From Bacteroidales bacterium (GTDB lineage Bacteria > Bacteroidota > Bacteroidia > Bacteroidales > UBA932), in NCBI GenBank assembly GCA_024398105.1, contig JAKSJP010000024.1, forward strand, positions 1 to 39,016: a stretch of 39,016 nt of DNA, read 5' to 3'. A model generated the notes under the pieces. That model was not told where the DNA came from and searched no databases. It was given only the letters and a program-made list of their open reading frames with translations. The position numbers and the translations under genes are program-made. Shown piece by piece: positions 25,040 through 32,972 of the stretch; the first letter of the stretch is position 1, and each line of letters opens with the position of its first letter.

Positions 25040-25648
25040 ATGAAAAGAATAATGATGATCGTCGCTGCGGCACTTATGCTCTGCAGCTGTGGAGGAAAGA
25101 AGGCGGACCAGACCGCTGCCGTACCGTTCGAGAGCCTTGGCTGGACCAAGGTCGCTCCGGAGGATATTGATTTCAATCCATTCCAGACCGTCGGAAAGGA
25201 CTGGATGGCACTTGCCATGGGCAACAAGGATGCGATGAACTCCATGACGATATCGTGGGGACAGTGCGGCGTCCTGTGGAACAAGCCTGTCTTTACGGTC
25301 TATGTGTCAAGCGACAGATTCTCAAAGAAGCAGATGGACTCTAACAAGTACTTCACTGTAAGTGCCTTCCCTGATACAAGGAAGAACAAGGCCGCCCTCA
25401 CCTATATCGGTTCTCACTCCCAGAGAGATGAACCGGAGAAGACGAAGAACGCCGGCTTCACCGTCGATTTCAGCGAACTCGGAAATCCTCTCATCAACGA
25501 GGCCTCGATGGTGTTCGAATGCAAGATCATCTATAAGGAAGAGATCAAGAAGAACCTTCTTCCAGACGATGTAAGGCCTAGCTATGACGACATGGGGCTC
25601 CATACCATGTATGTCGGCGAGATCGTCAATGTGTTTCAGAAGAAGTAG
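25040..25648 (+). CDS. Lipoprotein with flavin-reductase-like fold
   Basis: A 202-aa protein: signal peptide and lipobox ending at C17 (MLCSC), then a domain resembling the FMN-binding split barrel of flavin reductases (KDWMALAMGNKDAMNSMTIS, CGVLWNKPVFTVYVSSDRFS, YFTVSAF). These families are normally cytoplasmic, so the lipid anchor is unusual. FMN binding is inferred from the fold, not shown. Two nt downstream of rmuC and probably co-transcribed. The first HipB-type operator begins 7 nt after its stop. Confidence 0.8.
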   Translation: MKRIMMIVAAALMLCSCGGKKADQTAAVPFESLGWTKVAPEDIDFNPFQTVGKDWMALAMGNKDAMNSMTISWGQCGVLWNKPVFTVYVSSDRFSKKQMDSNKYFTVSAFPDTRKNKAALTYIGSHSQRDEPEKTKNAGFTVDFSELGNPLINEASMVFECKIIYKEEIKKNLLPDDVRPSYDDMGLHTMYVGEIVNVFQKK

Positions 25649-25655
25649 GATGGAA

Positions 25656-25673
25656 TATCCCCGTTCGGGGATG
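25656..25673. promoter_or_regulatory. HipB-type operator O1
   Basis: TATCC-CCGTTCGG-GGATG, inverted repeat with the central CCCCG-TT-CGGGG arms. It differs by one base from the E. coli HipB operator TATCC-N8-GGATA. Centre 41 bp from O2. Confidence 0.75.
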
Positions 25674-25696
25674 AAATAGCGATTTTTATGAAATTT

Positions 25697-25714
25697 TGTC
25701 CCCGATAGGGGCTG
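25697..25714. promoter_or_regulatory. HipB-type operator O2
   Basis: TGTCC-CCGATAGG-GGCTG, an imperfect copy of the same inverted repeat (CCCCGATAGGGG core). Centre 40 bp from O3, so the sites fall on nearly the same face of the helix. Confidence 0.65.
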
Positions 25715-25730
25715 GTTTCTGAATTTTTGC

Positions 25731-25738
25731 TATATTTG
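25731..25738 (+). promoter_or_regulatory. Promoter -7 element of the hip operon
   Basis: TATATTTG, 19 nt before the hipB ATG. Its last two bases are the first two of operator O3, so repressor binding at O3 would block the promoter and likely start site. Confidence 0.7.
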
Positions 25739-25754
25739 TCCCCGAACGGGGATA
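25737..25754. promoter_or_regulatory. HipB-type operator O3
   Basis: TGTCC-CCGAACGG-GGATA, one base off the E. coli HipB consensus TATCC-N8-GGATA, with perfect CCCCG/CGGGG arms. It overlaps the -7 element and ends 3 nt before the hipB start codon. Confidence 0.75.
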
Positions 25755-25757
25755 AAT

Positions 25758-25955
25758 ATGAATATTGGCGATTATATAAGGCAGAAGAGGAAGCAATATA
25801 GGCTTTCCCAGGTGGAACTGGCAGAGAGAGCGTCTGTCGGTGTACGTTTCATCAAGGACATGGAGGCTGGGAAGCAGACTTTACAGCTGAATAAGGTAAA
25901 TCAGGTGCTGAATCTCTTTGGGGAGGAGCTCGCGCCTAAGAAGATAAGCGACTAG
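25758..25955 (+). CDS. hipB: HipB-type antitoxin / repressor
   Basis: A 65-aa XRE-family DNA-binding protein, MNIGDYIRQKRKQYRLSQVE, with the helix-turn-helix around residues 15-40 (LSQVELAERASVGVRFIKDM) and a short C-terminal strand for dimerisation. In hip systems HipB represses its own operon and helps hold the kinase. The three operators upstream support autoregulation. It is followed 1 nt later by the HipS-like gene. Name given by family and context; not experimentally known here. Confidence 0.85.
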   Translation: MNIGDYIRQKRKQYRLSQVELAERASVGVRFIKDMEAGKQTLQLNKVNQVLNLFGEELAPKKISD

Positions 25956-25956
25956 T

Positions 25957-26277
25957 ATGAAGAAAGCTGATATATTTATCGATGGTGTCTTCTGCGGTCT
26001 CTTGACAGAGGATAATGATGGATTTCACTTCCGGTATGATGACCATTATCTGGCTCTTGAGAATCCGTGTCCTTTGAGCCCGACCATGCCTCTGACTTCC
26101 GAGGAGTATGAAAAGGAAATCATGTTCCCGGTTTTTGATGGCCTTATACCGGAAGGGTGGCTGCTTAATATTGTTACAAAGTCTTGGAAAATAGATTCGA
26201 GAGACAGAATGTCGCTGCTTATGGAATGTTGCAGGGACAGCATTGGAAATATAAGTGTCAGACCTCATGTGCAATAA
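25957..26277 (+). CDS. HipS-like protein (HipA N-subdomain 1)
   Basis: A 106-aa protein equivalent to only the first subdomain of HipA (Couple_hipA). Family blocks are LSPTMPL (41-47), PVFDGLIPEGWL (58-69) and LMECCRDSIGNISVRP at the C-terminus. In E. coli O127:H6 the HipBST system encodes this subdomain as a separate protein, HipS, which is the antitoxin to the kinase HipT; the gene order here is the same. That HipS acts as the antitoxin here is inference. Ends 11 nt inside the next gene. Confidence 0.82.
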   Translation: MKKADIFIDGVFCGLLTEDNDGFHFRYDDHYLALENPCPLSPTMPLTSEEYEKEIMFPVFDGLIPEGWLLNIVTKSWKIDSRDRMSLLMECCRDSIGNISVRPHVQ

Positions 26278-27235
26278 GTGCCTCATATGTTATGGTGAAT
26301 TGGCTGATGGAGAGGTCGATTACCATGCCTCGTGCCTGAAAAAGTTCTACGGTAGACCGGTTGCCCCGGTCATGCCTTATTCTCGGGACAATATATCGGA
26401 ACTCGCTTTGACTGTCATCCGTAATAGCATGACAGTGACTGGCGTTCAGCCGAAGCTGTCTCTTGATATAGACCGTGGAGGACGGAACAGGCAAGACAAA
26501 CTGACGATTGTCGGATTGTGGGGTCGATACATCCTGAAACCTCAGAGTGACACATATTGTTCTATGCCGGAACTTGAGGATGTGACGATGAAGATGGCTC
26601 GGGCGTCCGGTATCAAGACTGCTGAACATGCTCTTATAAGAATGTCCGATGGAGAATTGGCGTATATCACCAGACGCATGGACAGAGGAAAAGACGGTAC
26701 AAAGTATTCGATGCTTGACCTATGTCAGCTTTCCAATAGACTCACTGAGCATAAATACCGTGGTTCATATTCTCAATTGTCGGATACGGTCCGCAGATAT
26801 TCGTCATTGAGTCTGATAGATGTGCAGAGATTCTGGAGTATTGTCCTGTTTTCATGGATGACCGGTAACTCCGATATGCATTGCAAGAACTTTTCTTTGA
26901 TTGATCTCAAGGATGGGTCCGGCTATGTTCTTTCACCGGCATATGACCTTCTTGCAGTCCTGCTGACAGGTATTGAAGATGACAATGAACTGGCGATGAC
27001 TTTGTCTGGTCCTGGTGTAGATGACGGTTCTTTTATCGGAGGATATGGCAGGGTTGCCTTTGTTGATGCGATGGTCCAGTCCGGAATCAGTGAAAAATAC
27101 GCACAGACAATCATTGACAGGATGGTTGGGGACAAGGAAAAATGGTTCCGTCTGATTGAGAATTCTTTCCTGAGCTCTCAGTTAGCTGAACGATATAAAG
27201 GACTGATTGAGGCGAGGATCGCAAGACTGATCTAA
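26267..27235 (+). CDS. HipT/HipA-like serine/threonine kinase toxin
   Basis: A 322-aa kinase that would phosphorylate a translation component, such as an aminoacyl-tRNA synthetase, to stop growth. It starts with a zinc-ribbon-like C-x2-C-x2-C (2-8) and H20-x2-C23. The Gly-rich loop is TVTGVQPKL (56-64), K91 lies in YILKPQ, the catalytic loop is NSDMHCKN (201-208; D203, N208) and the metal-binding aspartate is D227 in SPAYD. All key kinase residues are present, so it is likely active. T-V-T occupies the place of the autophosphorylated S-I-S of HipT. ATG at 26267 overlaps the HipS-like stop; a GTG at 26255 would add four residues. Confidence 0.85.
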   Translation: MCNKCLICYGELADGEVDYHASCLKKFYGRPVAPVMPYSRDNISELALTVIRNSMTVTGVQPKLSLDIDRGGRNRQDKLTIVGLWGRYILKPQSDTYCSMPELEDVTMKMARASGIKTAEHALIRMSDGELAYITRRMDRGKDGTKYSMLDLCQLSNRLTEHKYRGSYSQLSDTVRRYSSLSLIDVQRFWSIVLFSWMTGNSDMHCKNFSLIDLKDGSGYVLSPAYDLLAVLLTGIEDDNELAMTLSGPGVDDGSFIGGYGRVAFVDAMVQSGISEKYAQTIIDRMVGDKEKWFRLIENSFLSSQLAERYKGLIEARIARLI

Positions 27236-29198: not shown

Positions 29199-29269
29199 TG
29201 TATGTATAGTTTCCTGCCGGAGACTCCGGCAGGAAATCCATTAATCTTAAAAGAAACAAATCAATGAAA
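29082..29269 (+). repeat. Module-boundary repeat, copy A
   Basis: Bases 29082-29221 are identical to 35239-35378 (140 nt), covering the 3' end of the immunity gene, its stop and the left hairpin arm. Bases 29127-29269 also match 38494-38636 closely, including the shared text AGAAACAAATCAATGAAA leading into the next start codon. The repeat thus joins one immunity gene to the next toxin cassette. Confidence 0.9.
29210..29236 (+). terminator. Hairpin after immunity copy A
   Basis: TTTCCTGCCGGAG (29210-29222) and CTCCGGCAGGAAA (29224-29236) form a 13-bp stem. There is no long T run after it; it may act as a terminator or mRNA-stabilising hairpin. Variants recur at 35367 and 38577, and a left half at 36556. 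Confidence 0.6.
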
Positions 29270-30256
29270 CATAAAAATATTGCGGCGGCTGCGATTTCAG
29301 CCGTCCTGGGACTGATGTCCCTTGCCTTATCGGCAAAAGAATCGTATATTGGTACCGACAGCACCATCGTCGTCCGCGACTACATCGCGAACATGGAGTA
29401 TGTGAACGGCGTGCTGGAGCGAGTGAACTTCGAAGGAGGCTACATCGACATGACGGGAGAAAGTCCGAGATACATGTACTACGTGACCGGCCATCTTGGC
29501 AACGTCAGGGCGGTTGTGGACGAGGACAATACCTTGTTCGGCAGGTTCACGACGCTTGACCCGATGGCGGAGAAGTACTATTCAGTGAGTCCGTATGCGT
29601 ACTGCGCGGGGAATCCGGTGAGATTTGTGGATCCTAGTGGGAAAGATTGGTATCGGGATTCTGAAGGACATATACAATGGACATCGTTGACATCGCAGGA
29701 TTCCATGGAGCAACAAAATCTGGAAGGTACCTACTTGGGACCGATCGTGGTATGCTTTGAAGGTAGTATGGATGAGAAACTCGGTTGGGATATGGAGAAG
29801 AATCGTATAGGCAATATCGACGGAGAAGGAGCTGTAACAGCAAAGGTTATTGTATATGGACAAAAAAGTGAAGACGATATAGCAATATATACCGGTTTTA
29901 CATTAACTTCTGATTACTTGAAATTTGGCGCCATTGCTGATGGTGGATACGATGTTACATATAGAGAGAGCGCAGGTGGAGGTGCAATACCTAAACATTA
30001 TATGGTAAATAATGGTGGTCCGGTTGATTGCATTAATAATATCAATTTGAGTCCTAAGGAATATGCTCCATATAGTGATACCCAAAAAGATTGGATTTTC
30101 ATTCATCGGACAAATTATAATGGATGGGCAGGAGATACACCATCGATGAATAAATGCGTTTCATCTGGGTGCTTATTGATTCGTGCAGGTGATTGGGACG
30201 CATTTACAAGACAAGTAGGAAAGAATGGATTTAGATTACTATTGGAAAGGAGATGA
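29264..30256 (+). CDS. Miniature Rhs protein with L,D-transpeptidase-like toxin tip
   Basis: A 330-aa protein. Residues 1-24 look like a signal peptide (IAAAAISAVLGLMSLALSA). Residues 36-128 are the end of an Rhs core: YVTGHLGNVRAVVDED then directly LFGRFTTLDPMAEKYYSVSP and YAYCAGNPVRFVDPSGK, the hallmark just before toxin tips; the usual segment between these parts is missing. The tip (about 129-330) contains IFIHRTN (H281) and CVSSGCLLI (C303), resembling the H...S-x-G-C signature of YkuD L,D-transpeptidases and the DUF5675 group, so a peptidoglycan target is plausible. Catalysis is inference. Its stop overlaps the next start (ATGA). Confidence 0.72.
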   Translation: MKHKNIAAAAISAVLGLMSLALSAKESYIGTDSTIVVRDYIANMEYVNGVLERVNFEGGYIDMTGESPRYMYYVTGHLGNVRAVVDEDNTLFGRFTTLDPMAEKYYSVSPYAYCAGNPVRFVDPSGKDWYRDSEGHIQWTSLTSQDSMEQQNLEGTYLGPIVVCFEGSMDEKLGWDMEKNRIGNIDGEGAVTAKVIVYGQKSEDDIAIYTGFTLTSDYLKFGAIADGGYDVTYRESAGGGAIPKHYMVNNGGPVDCINNINLSPKEYAPYSDTQKDWIFIHRTNYNGWAGDTPSMNKCVSSGCLLIRAGDWDAFTRQVGKNGFRLLLERR

Positions 30257-31101: not shown

Positions 31102-31743
31102 TCACGCCTTCTCTTCCAGCATATTAACCAGTAGATCAACTGTGGTGCACGGGTTGTGCTGTGCATAGTTCTTGTCGGTATACATCTCACGCAGTTTCTG
31201 AGCCCTACTCTTTGCATCAATCTCTTTCCCATATCTTCTCAAAATGTCGAACATCTGATCTCCTCCCTTAGTATATGTGAATTTCGAATCGAACTTTCTG
31301 ACTTCCCGCTCCAGAATTTCAATGTATTGCTTACGACTTACGGCGGCTGTCAGATCGATGAAATGTAGGCAAAACCAAAGTTCAAAAGCTTCGTTAGACC
31401 ATGCACAATGGAATCCGCTCTTTTCTGCGATCTCGATAGCCTCATTGAAGTCCGCATTTTCATCCTTGTCGAACGCTACCCATACATAGTCATACGTATC
31501 AAGGTCGCGTCTTTTCTTGGTTTCTTCCACCAACTTCTTTGTGCTTCGGTCCGCCCCAATTGTGATTACTCTTGAACGTCGGCTGGTAAAATGGCGGAAG
31601 TACTCCGGTTCTGTCTTGGTACCCTCGCAAACAATCAAGAAACTGTAAAACAATTCCTTGGTAGCCTCCCGGCGGCGTGATCTGGTGCCGGAATGTCTGG
31701 AAGTGAGTTCTTCCCTTTGCTTTTTCGTCAGATGCTTTGCCAT
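31102..31743 (-). CDS. rloB: RloB-like TOPRIM-related defence protein
   Basis: A 213-aa protein with the RloB signatures VCEGTKTEPEYFRHF (38-52), FDKDEN (90-95) and SNEAFELWFCLHF (115-127). The glutamate plus D-x-D layout matches a TOPRIM-like metal site, so a nuclease activity is likely. RloA/RloB-type pairs occur in restriction loci, and the related AbiLi/AbiLii pair in Lactococcus gives abortive infection. Encoded 12 nt after the RloA-type ATPase gene on the minus strand. Function as anti-phage defence is inference from family. Confidence 0.85.
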   Translation of the reverse strand: MAKHLTKKQREELTSRHSGTRSRRREATKELFYSFLIVCEGTKTEPEYFRHFTSRRSRVITIGADRSTKKLVEETKKRRDLDTYDYVWVAFDKDENADFNEAIEIAEKSGFHCAWSNEAFELWFCLHFIDLTAAVSRKQYIEILEREVRKFDSKFTYTKGGDQMFDILRRYGKEIDAKSRAQKLREMYTDKNYAQHNPCTTVDLLVNMLEEKA

Positions 31744-31755
31744 AGTCGGGGTCTG

Positions 31756-32922
31756 CTAAAGGTAAGGGATGGCGCCGTATTTACCGTTAATGTAGTCTTT
31801 CTCGTAGCTTCTGTCGTTTCGCACCTTTACACCGGACGCATCCTTGAACTCAACAAGGGAATACAGATCGGTTGCCGCAGTCTCATCCTTCTCGGTAAAC
31901 CATATCTGATCACGGCGGAGGAATCTGTTGTCTAGAAGATTGGTGTCATGGGTCGTGAATATCAGCTGCGATCCCATGGGGTTTGTTTCCTTGCTGTTGA
32001 ACAGAGAAATCAACATGCGTGTAATCATAGGGTGCATGCTGCTTCCGAACTCATCAATAATCAGTACACGGCGGTCAGCAAGTGCCTTGACAAATATAGG
32101 TGCCATGTCGAACAGCTTGTTGGTGCCGTTCGACTCCGAGTCCGACAAAGCCATCGAGATCTCTCCTGTGACCTCACCTGCAGCGTTATACACCTTATGA
32201 GTCGTTATCGCTTTTATTGACGGATTGTCCACCTTTCTGATGGAGTCAAAGCCCAATTTGAACTTTGCCAGGAATATGTTCAGCTCTTCATCTGAAATGG
32301 ATATCGCTTTGCTGGCCAACGTCTCTGACTTGTCACCGTCAAAGATGGCAAAACCTTTCAGCTCCCGCATGATCATGCCGGCAATCCTGTCATTGAATGC
32401 ATCGGCCACTGAAAGGAAAAGCGCATTGTCCCTTGTCCTTTCCACCATATCTTCCACTGACTTGTAATGGGTAGTGACACCTATTCCGTCTTCCGATCGG
32501 ACAAACAGGCACTTCTCGCGCCCCTTGTTGCCCGTCCTGAAGAACAGATACTCCTCGTAAACCTTCTCCTTTGTTGCCGAAAAACCATAGCGATAATAGT
32601 CACCATCAATCAACAGTTCTGTCTCAAAAGAGCTCGGCTTTGTACGGCTGTCCTCATCAAAGAGGAAGGGAAACATTGGCAACTCTTCCGATGAATTGAA
32701 ACTTGCCGAATTGTACACGGTGGTAAGAAATGCTCTGAAAGACTCTATCAGGTTACTTTTCCCACTGGAGTTGGCACCATACAGAACTGCCGATGGAAGA
32801 ATGGCGGTATCTCCCACCTTCGTCAATGAATCTTCATATTCCTTAACGTTTGCCGCAGACAAATCCAGCGTCTTCTTGTTCTTGAAAGACCTATAATTTG
32901 AAACAGTAAAACTCAATAGCAT
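31756..32922 (-). CDS. rloA: RloA-like AAA/ABC-type ATPase
   Basis: A 388-aa cytoplasmic ATPase of the OLD/RloA group. It starts LLSFTVSNYRSFKNKKTLDL, with Walker A GANSSGKSN (about 48-56), Walker B VLIIDEFGSSMHP and the H-loop FTTHDTNLLDN near the C-terminus. The start at 32922 is chosen because it matches the family's usual N-terminus; an ATG 21 nt upstream is in frame. Transcribed before rloB from a promoter at 32941-32972. Together they form a two-gene abortive-infection-like module. Confidence 0.87.
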   Translation of the reverse strand: MLLSFTVSNYRSFKNKKTLDLSAANVKEYEDSLTKVGDTAILPSAVLYGANSSGKSNLIESFRAFLTTVYNSASFNSSEELPMFPFLFDEDSRTKPSSFETELLIDGDYYRYGFSATKEKVYEEYLFFRTGNKGREKCLFVRSEDGIGVTTHYKSVEDMVERTRDNALFLSVADAFNDRIAGMIMRELKGFAIFDGDKSETLASKAISISDEELNIFLAKFKLGFDSIRKVDNPSIKAITTHKVYNAAGEVTGEISMALSDSESNGTNKLFDMAPIFVKALADRRVLIIDEFGSSMHPMITRMLISLFNSKETNPMGSQLIFTTHDTNLLDNRFLRRDQIWFTEKDETAATDLYSLVEFKDASGVKVRNDRSYEKDYINGKYGAIPYL

Positions 32923-32940
32923 GTTAATATGAATTTTATG

Positions 32941-32972
32941 CAAAGTAAAGCAAAAGTCACCATAAACTCAAA
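32941..32972 (-). promoter_or_regulatory. Probable promoter of rloA-rloB
   Basis: On the minus strand TTTG (32972-32969) is followed after 20 nt by TTACTTTG (32948-32941), one mismatch from TAnnTTTG. It lies 18 nt before the rloA start. Confidence 0.5.

Follow-up and report, generated by a model that had tools for sequence, protein, structure and literature searches.

Operators of HipBST systems have been described for Legionella only in the literature searched. In the Legionella pneumophila hipBST operon, HipB binds three evenly spaced upstream operators with 53-bp gaps; intermediate occupancy of these sites is suggested and contrasted with cooperativity, and the motifs are reported as unlike known hipBA operators (PMC10653801). 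The Legionella motifs are reported to be absent from the HipBST system of E. coli O127:H6 (PMC10653801). In the E. coli system, HipB alone represses the promoter, and hipBT or hipBST represses at a lower level than hipB alone; the HipBST heterohexamer measures up to 135 Å across in the crystal, and in solution part of it forms oligomers whose complexes lie ~80 Å apart (PMC10627512). For the hipBA system of E. coli K-12, a 21-bp operator oligo contains TATCCCC..GGGGATA (PMC3376134).

The locus analysed here lies in a 39,016-nucleotide stretch of DNA from a Bacteroidales bacterium, referred to in its entirety as the window. With three evenly spaced 18-nt inverted-repeat sites, a tripartite operon and a proximal site on the promoter, it resembles the Legionella locus, from which it differs in its gaps of 23 and 22 bp instead of 53 bp and in site numbering: in Legionella the near-start site is named O1 (PMC10653801), whereas O1 of the window is the distal one. 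The E. coli O127:H6 system shares the split into hipS and hipT (PMC10627512), and both HipBST systems are likened to the window by layout and probable regulation rather than by operator letters. Like the window, the K-12 system has several operators, each an 18-bp dyad with TAT..C as outer bases, and it is autoregulated, as the window operon probably is; in contrast, it is a two-gene system with four operators, its O1 and O2 start 28 bp apart (from the oligo) versus 41 and 40 bp here, and its half-site is TATCC, compared with TATACCC as the usual form in relatives of the window (PMC3376134).

The hipBST operon and its upstream palindromes

The features of the locus are as follows:

25040–25648: flavin-reductase-like gene (PF01613 match)
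25656–25673, plus strand: putative operator O1 (distal), TATCCCCGTTCGGGGATG; centre 25664.5
25697–25714, plus strand: putative operator O2 (middle), TGTCCCCGATAGGGGCTG, imperfect; centre 25705.5
25731–25738, plus strand: Bacteroidota-type -7 element TATATTTG (TAnnTTTG; consensus from PMC7366714)
25737–25754, plus strand: putative operator O3 (proximal), TGTCCCCGAACGGGGATA; centre 25745.5, 3 bases 5' of the hipB ATG
25758–25955, plus strand: hipB, 65-aa HTH protein of the Y4mF family (TIGR03070, 73.9 bits, cutoff 71.65; HTH_3)
25842–25865, plus strand: codons of the HipB recognition helix, residues 29–36 (VRFIKDME; DSSP helix 29–36)
25957–26277, plus strand: hipS, 106 aa, HipA N-terminal domain (PF13657, 2.3e-24; TIGR03071, 2.6e-25)
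26270–27235, plus strand: hipT, 321 aa, HipA_C kinase (PF07804, 1.2e-42)

A HipB-type HTH gene comes first, and the HipA N-terminal and HipA_C domains are encoded by separate genes, hipS and hipT; the layout is therefore that of a tripartite hipBST toxin–antitoxin operon. The hipT ATG at 26270 overlaps the hipS stop, and an alternative GTG start at 26255 is possible. In the predicted model of HipB (pLDDT 94.1), residues 29, 30 and 33 fall inside the recognition helix (29–36) and align with Q28, Q29 and E32 of the 434 repressor, whose Q28 and Q29 make base contacts. The recognition-helix residues of E. coli HipB differ from those of the window protein. The nearest solved structure is HipB(Lp) (8ezt), followed by other HTH proteins; fold matches include HipB entries with operator DNA (4pu4, 4yg1), with PDB 4yg1 and 3dnv as E. 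coli K-12 entries.

The palindromes occupy a 109-bp gap between the stop of the flavin-reductase-like gene and the hipB ATG (25758). As described in the initial annotation, they are three inverted repeats, all matching TRTCC-N8-GGNTR, and the coordinates bear out its centre-to-centre distances of 41 bp for O1–O2 and 40 bp for O2–O3. Its statement that two of the sites are one base away from the E. coli consensus TATCC-N8-GGATA also holds, for O1 and O3; O2 has three mismatches, counted by eye, and none of the three sites is an exact match (1, 3 and 1 mismatches). The pattern CCCCGNNNGGGG has three matches on the plus strand of the window, all within the array, and only O1 and O3 again on the other strand, while TNTCCCCGNNNGGGGNTR has three matches in the 2.43-Mb genome, every one in the array, compared with one for the reversed control. 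Because the matches to both patterns are confined to the array, the core common to O1–O3 is given as CCCCG-N3-GGGG, which extends beyond the motif first described. With a relaxed operator pattern, the genome yielded 23 matches in forward and 29 in reverse orientation (control, 34 and 20); these are scattered single matches on a par with the control, and further genomic targets of the window HipB were rejected as candidates.

The proposed overlap between O3 and the promoter was confirmed: the first two bases of O3 double as the final two of the -7 box, identified with TAnnTTTG as the -7 consensus for Bacteroidota promoters (PMC7366714). By its position, O2 would lie near the expected -33 region. 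The palindromes might instead act as RNA hairpins, i.e., an attenuator or terminator in the transcript, and the stretch does fold at -57.8 kcal/mol (z -8.1), with one terminator-like match at O2. However, mutually similar palindromes always fold in this way, no Rfam match reached the gathering score, and the sites of relatives are frequently imperfect dyads. O1 and O2 moreover lie 5' of the -7 box, and the hipBST transcript is not expected to include them; on this positional ground the RNA-structure reading was rejected as scarcely credible.

Approximately 4 kb downstream of hipBST, an AbiL-like pair was found on the minus strand (31102–31743 and 31756–32943; AbiLi 7.4e-89, AbiLii 4.2e-26; Pfam RloB and AAA_21), which suggests a defence neighbourhood. 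A reading frame at 29264–30256 has an RHS-like stretch by eye; a Pfam search of this frame gave no hit.

Conservation and spacing of the array in related loci

Searches for hipB returned 267 loci, of which 248 were usable (19 rows were dropped for a missing start, a missing helix motif or an upstream region shorter than 130 bp) and 193 remained after dereplication. Of these loci, 53 derive from named genome contigs, 132 from other genomes (the window's included), 5 from viral and 3 from plasmid sequences; the viral scan had yielded 23 loci, with 14 dropped and 5 left after dereplication, and 3 of 4 plasmid hits were used. The best loci of each search were taken, together with all 34 remaining places of one search and 6 of 22 of another, while 30 listed places of a third were left aside, and distant HipBs are consequently under-sampled. 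hipS and hipT are present as separate frames in 156 loci and as a fused frame in 2; nine loci have one of the two genes and 26 neither. At least 700 bp of downstream sequence is available in 21 of these 26, so some hipB genes look like orphans.

Homologous operons without the repeats, which the initial annotation had set against its own proposal, are the exception. Promoter sites are conserved in the form of an adjacent pair at 39–43 bp in 187 of the 193 loci, scored with class motifs, and an evenly spaced run of at least three sites is found in 151. The longest even run comprises five sites in 1 locus, four in 11, three in 139, two in 36 and one in 5. Spacing is nearly invariant: 351 of 359 adjacent spacings fall within 39–43 bp, 322 of them at 40 or 41 bp. 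The pair is absent from L094, L183, L218, L242 and L248, and L292 lacks a motif class; in L242 and L248 the start appears to have been miscalled. Shuffled upstream regions contained an evenly spaced pair in a mean of 0.00 loci over 20 shuffles, and the coding control in 0 of 186 stretches, among which one lacked a motif class.

Training of the class motifs drew in part on the scored loci; two further results are independent of this training. Among 35 loci held out of motif building, 32 carry the spaced pair. In a motif-free lag test, performed on an earlier set of 159 loci (one upstream being too short), the best 16-bp self-match lag was 40, 41 or 42 bp in 120.3 of 158 upstreams, versus 7.0 in shuffles.

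The spaced pair occurs in 155 of the 156 loci where hipS and hipT form separate frames and in 22 of 26 hipB loci without recognised hipS or hipT; from the latter figure, the array goes with hipB. The array is also seen in single loci labelled Lentisphaerota, Melainabacteria, Kiritimatiellota and Chlorobiota and in two labelled Ignavibacteriota, phylum labels of metagenome bins being subject to error; in the sole Thermodesulfobacteriota locus, two sites are present at a distance of 73 bp.

Individual loci depart from the layout of the window. The region upstream of hipB in L045 contains five operators at an even 41-bp spacing, where the window has three. Eight loci (L006, L040, L128, L146, L153, L196, L199 and L289) have three or four operators with hipS and hipT unrecognised by BLAST downstream; their HipBs are possible orphan antitoxin-regulators.

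Promoter overlap recurs in the class of loci whose HipB carries Arg30. TAnnTTTG ends on operator positions 1–2 at 91 of 152 proximal sites versus 5 of 307 non-proximal ones, and position 2 is G in 96 of 152 proximal versus 38 of 286 distal sites. The G at position 2, together with the box overlap, would fit a compromise between promoter and operator.

Operator letters and HipB residue 30

The operator half-site differs with residue 30 of HipB. It is TATACCC with Arg30 (in the motif run, residue 29 was Leu in 123 of these loci and Ile in 7), TACATCC with Asn30 (7 loci), TATACTC with His30 (2 loci) and TATATG with Thr30 (15 loci); in the last class, 27 of 28 gaps measure exactly 40 bp. Position 5 is T in all 40 Asn30 half-sites versus 61 of 952 with Arg30, and position 6 is T in 8 of 12 with His30 (mixed, 4 of 6 in each locus) versus 19 of 952 with Arg30, counts that use the class motifs and are thus biased towards the class. 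HipBs with a GVALT helix (L053, L055, L198, L200, L203, L206, L210–L214, L219, L220, L222 and L223) have AT-rich TATATG-N6-CATATA operators at almost exactly 40-bp spacing.

A quick FastTree phylogeny of HipT (154 rows) requires at least six changes of residue 30 and at least nine of operator positions 5–6. It offers four independent pairs, or five including unsupported branches; in the four pairs the operator tracks residue 30 (mean 3.9 of 4) and never runs opposite, a number of pairs with which a sign test cannot reach 0.05. The two His30 loci lie in separate parts of the tree, each closest to an Arg30/ACCC relative, and show the same operator change. Leave-one-out class assignment was correct for 7 of 7 Asn30, 15 of 15 Thr30 and 146 of 163 Arg30 loci, but performed weakly, with 1 of 2 correct, in each of the two-locus classes, His30 and that of the window. 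For the window sites, the Arg30 motif gives a score of 50.7 and the motif of L082 one of 49.8; the sites of L082 itself reach 45.1 with the window motif and 13.9 with the Arg30 motif.

Since the operator covaries with residue 30, HipB is favoured as the binding protein, and this covariation supports HipB as the probable ligand of the array. Binding of the palindromes by another host-encoded regulator would be compatible with the fact that the role of HipB is deduced here from sequence. Such a regulator is nevertheless highly improbable given that the operators vary jointly with HipB, that the spaced pair persists at hipB genes lacking recognised partners, and that the strict pattern occurs nowhere else in the genome, with the relaxed one giving scattered single matches.

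Within the Arg30 class, the window has a rare variant operator. Position 4 is C in all six of its half-sites, on both sides of O1 among them, versus 45 of 940 half-sites in other Arg30-class loci, where A is found in 868. Val29 and Lys33 each occur in 2 of 193 loci, the window and L082, its closest relative found (HipB 78 percent identical), where 2 of 6 half-sites share the C. The hipS and hipT frames of L082 are out of the usual order, so this locus may be decaying. C at position 4 is also seen with ordinary residues 29 and 33, in 2 of 4 half-sites of L101 and in two half-sites each of L007, L014, L115, L146, L157 and L175. For these reasons, a connection of C at position 4 with Val29 and Lys33, based on two loci, is put forward as a suggestion.

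It is the change of position 4 to C that makes the window sites resemble those of E. coli. The initial annotation inferred from the resemblance that DNA specificity would be conserved across phyla; on this reading, E. coli-type operators would be read by a HipB whose specificity had been retained since before the phyla split. The single mismatch of O1 and O3 agrees with this, as do the 18-bp dyad and TAT..C positions common to the window and the E. coli consensus (PMC3376134). The predominance of A at position 4 in relatives argues against it, as does the 28-bp spacing in E. coli (PMC3376134). Exact TATCC-N8-GGATA was found in the 160 bp upstream of hipB in 0 of 167 Arg30 loci; 15 sites in 14 of these loci come within one mismatch, two of them the window's own, versus 294 sites that come equally close to TATAC-N8-GTATA. 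The consensus is, in addition, near chance level, with 15 matches in the window at up to two mismatches (15.8 expected) and 74 places in the genome at up to one mismatch (62 for the reversed control), and such matches were rejected as evidence. Cross-phylum conservation of E. coli-type specificity was thus not sustained, and we consider it very unlikely. Convergence is the simpler reading because relatives have A at position 4, and the likeness of the window operators to those of E. coli is probably convergent and coincidental.

A proposed model of hipB autoregulation

On the comparisons above, we consider it likely that O1–O3 are autoregulatory operators of HipB, with O3 serving to block the promoter and neighbouring complexes packing at 40–41 bp. 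Autoregulation by HipB through an even array with its proximal site on the promoter is the part of the initial proposal that stands, supported by the homologues and the residue-30 covariation; its E. coli-type specificity does not. One HipB dimer would occupy each 18-bp dyad, and residues 29, 30 and 33, where its recognition helix begins, would read approximately positions 4 to 6 of the half-site. HipB on O3 would mask the last part of the -7 element together with the site where transcription presumably starts; we propose that hipBST transcription would thereby be blocked, with RNA polymerase obstructed at O3. O2 and O1, 40 and 81 bp upstream, would lie on nearly the same DNA face as O3, and neighbouring HipB (or HipB–HipS–HipT) complexes could pack along the DNA and raise O3 occupancy, so that the 40–41 bp spacing would act as a ruler maintained by protein contacts. 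In the window, the half-site may have changed from TATACCC to TATCCCC, possibly owing to the rare Val29 and Lys33.

A spacing of roughly four turns suits side-by-side contact between complexes at least as well as looping. Forty base pairs of DNA measure ~136 Å, close to the 135 Å of the E. coli heterohexamer, whereas the 80 Å between complexes in solution does not match (PMC10627512); end-to-end packing of HipBST complexes is possible, the agreement in size being so far a coincidence. Alternatively, the three sites could act independently, setting by titration the level of HipB needed, with spacing merely inherited and no contact between neighbours, as the intermediate occupancy suggested for Legionella, in contrast to cooperativity, would allow (PMC10653801). 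The spacing, however, stays at 40–41 bp while operator letters and HipB class diverge, and is exactly 40 bp in nearly all gaps of the Thr30 class; we regard independent titration as unlikely.

The packing model may be extended to a three-site 40–41 bp lattice in front of hipB that would scaffold a HipB–HipS–HipT array across Bacteroidota as well as in individual loci from other phyla, with a DNA code in which residue 30 would specify positions 5–6 and residues 29 and 33 position 4; the window would have re-evolved an E. coli-like operator through a different helix. We advance this extension tentatively, as possible rather than probable; it is rated lower because the sole relative supporting its position-4 part has disordered hipS and hipT frames.

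Arrays of this kind are known from E. coli and Legionella; the spacing, breadth and residue–operator covariation seen here appear to be new, and no description of the array in Bacteroidota was found at title and abstract level in the literature searched. The array would provide a signature marking hipB autoregulation across much of a phylum. Its constant spacing under changing sequence makes it a testable case for contact between neighbouring repressors, and the natural replacements at residue 30, which go with corresponding changes in the operator and include one that arose twice, amount to a ready-made specificity experiment.
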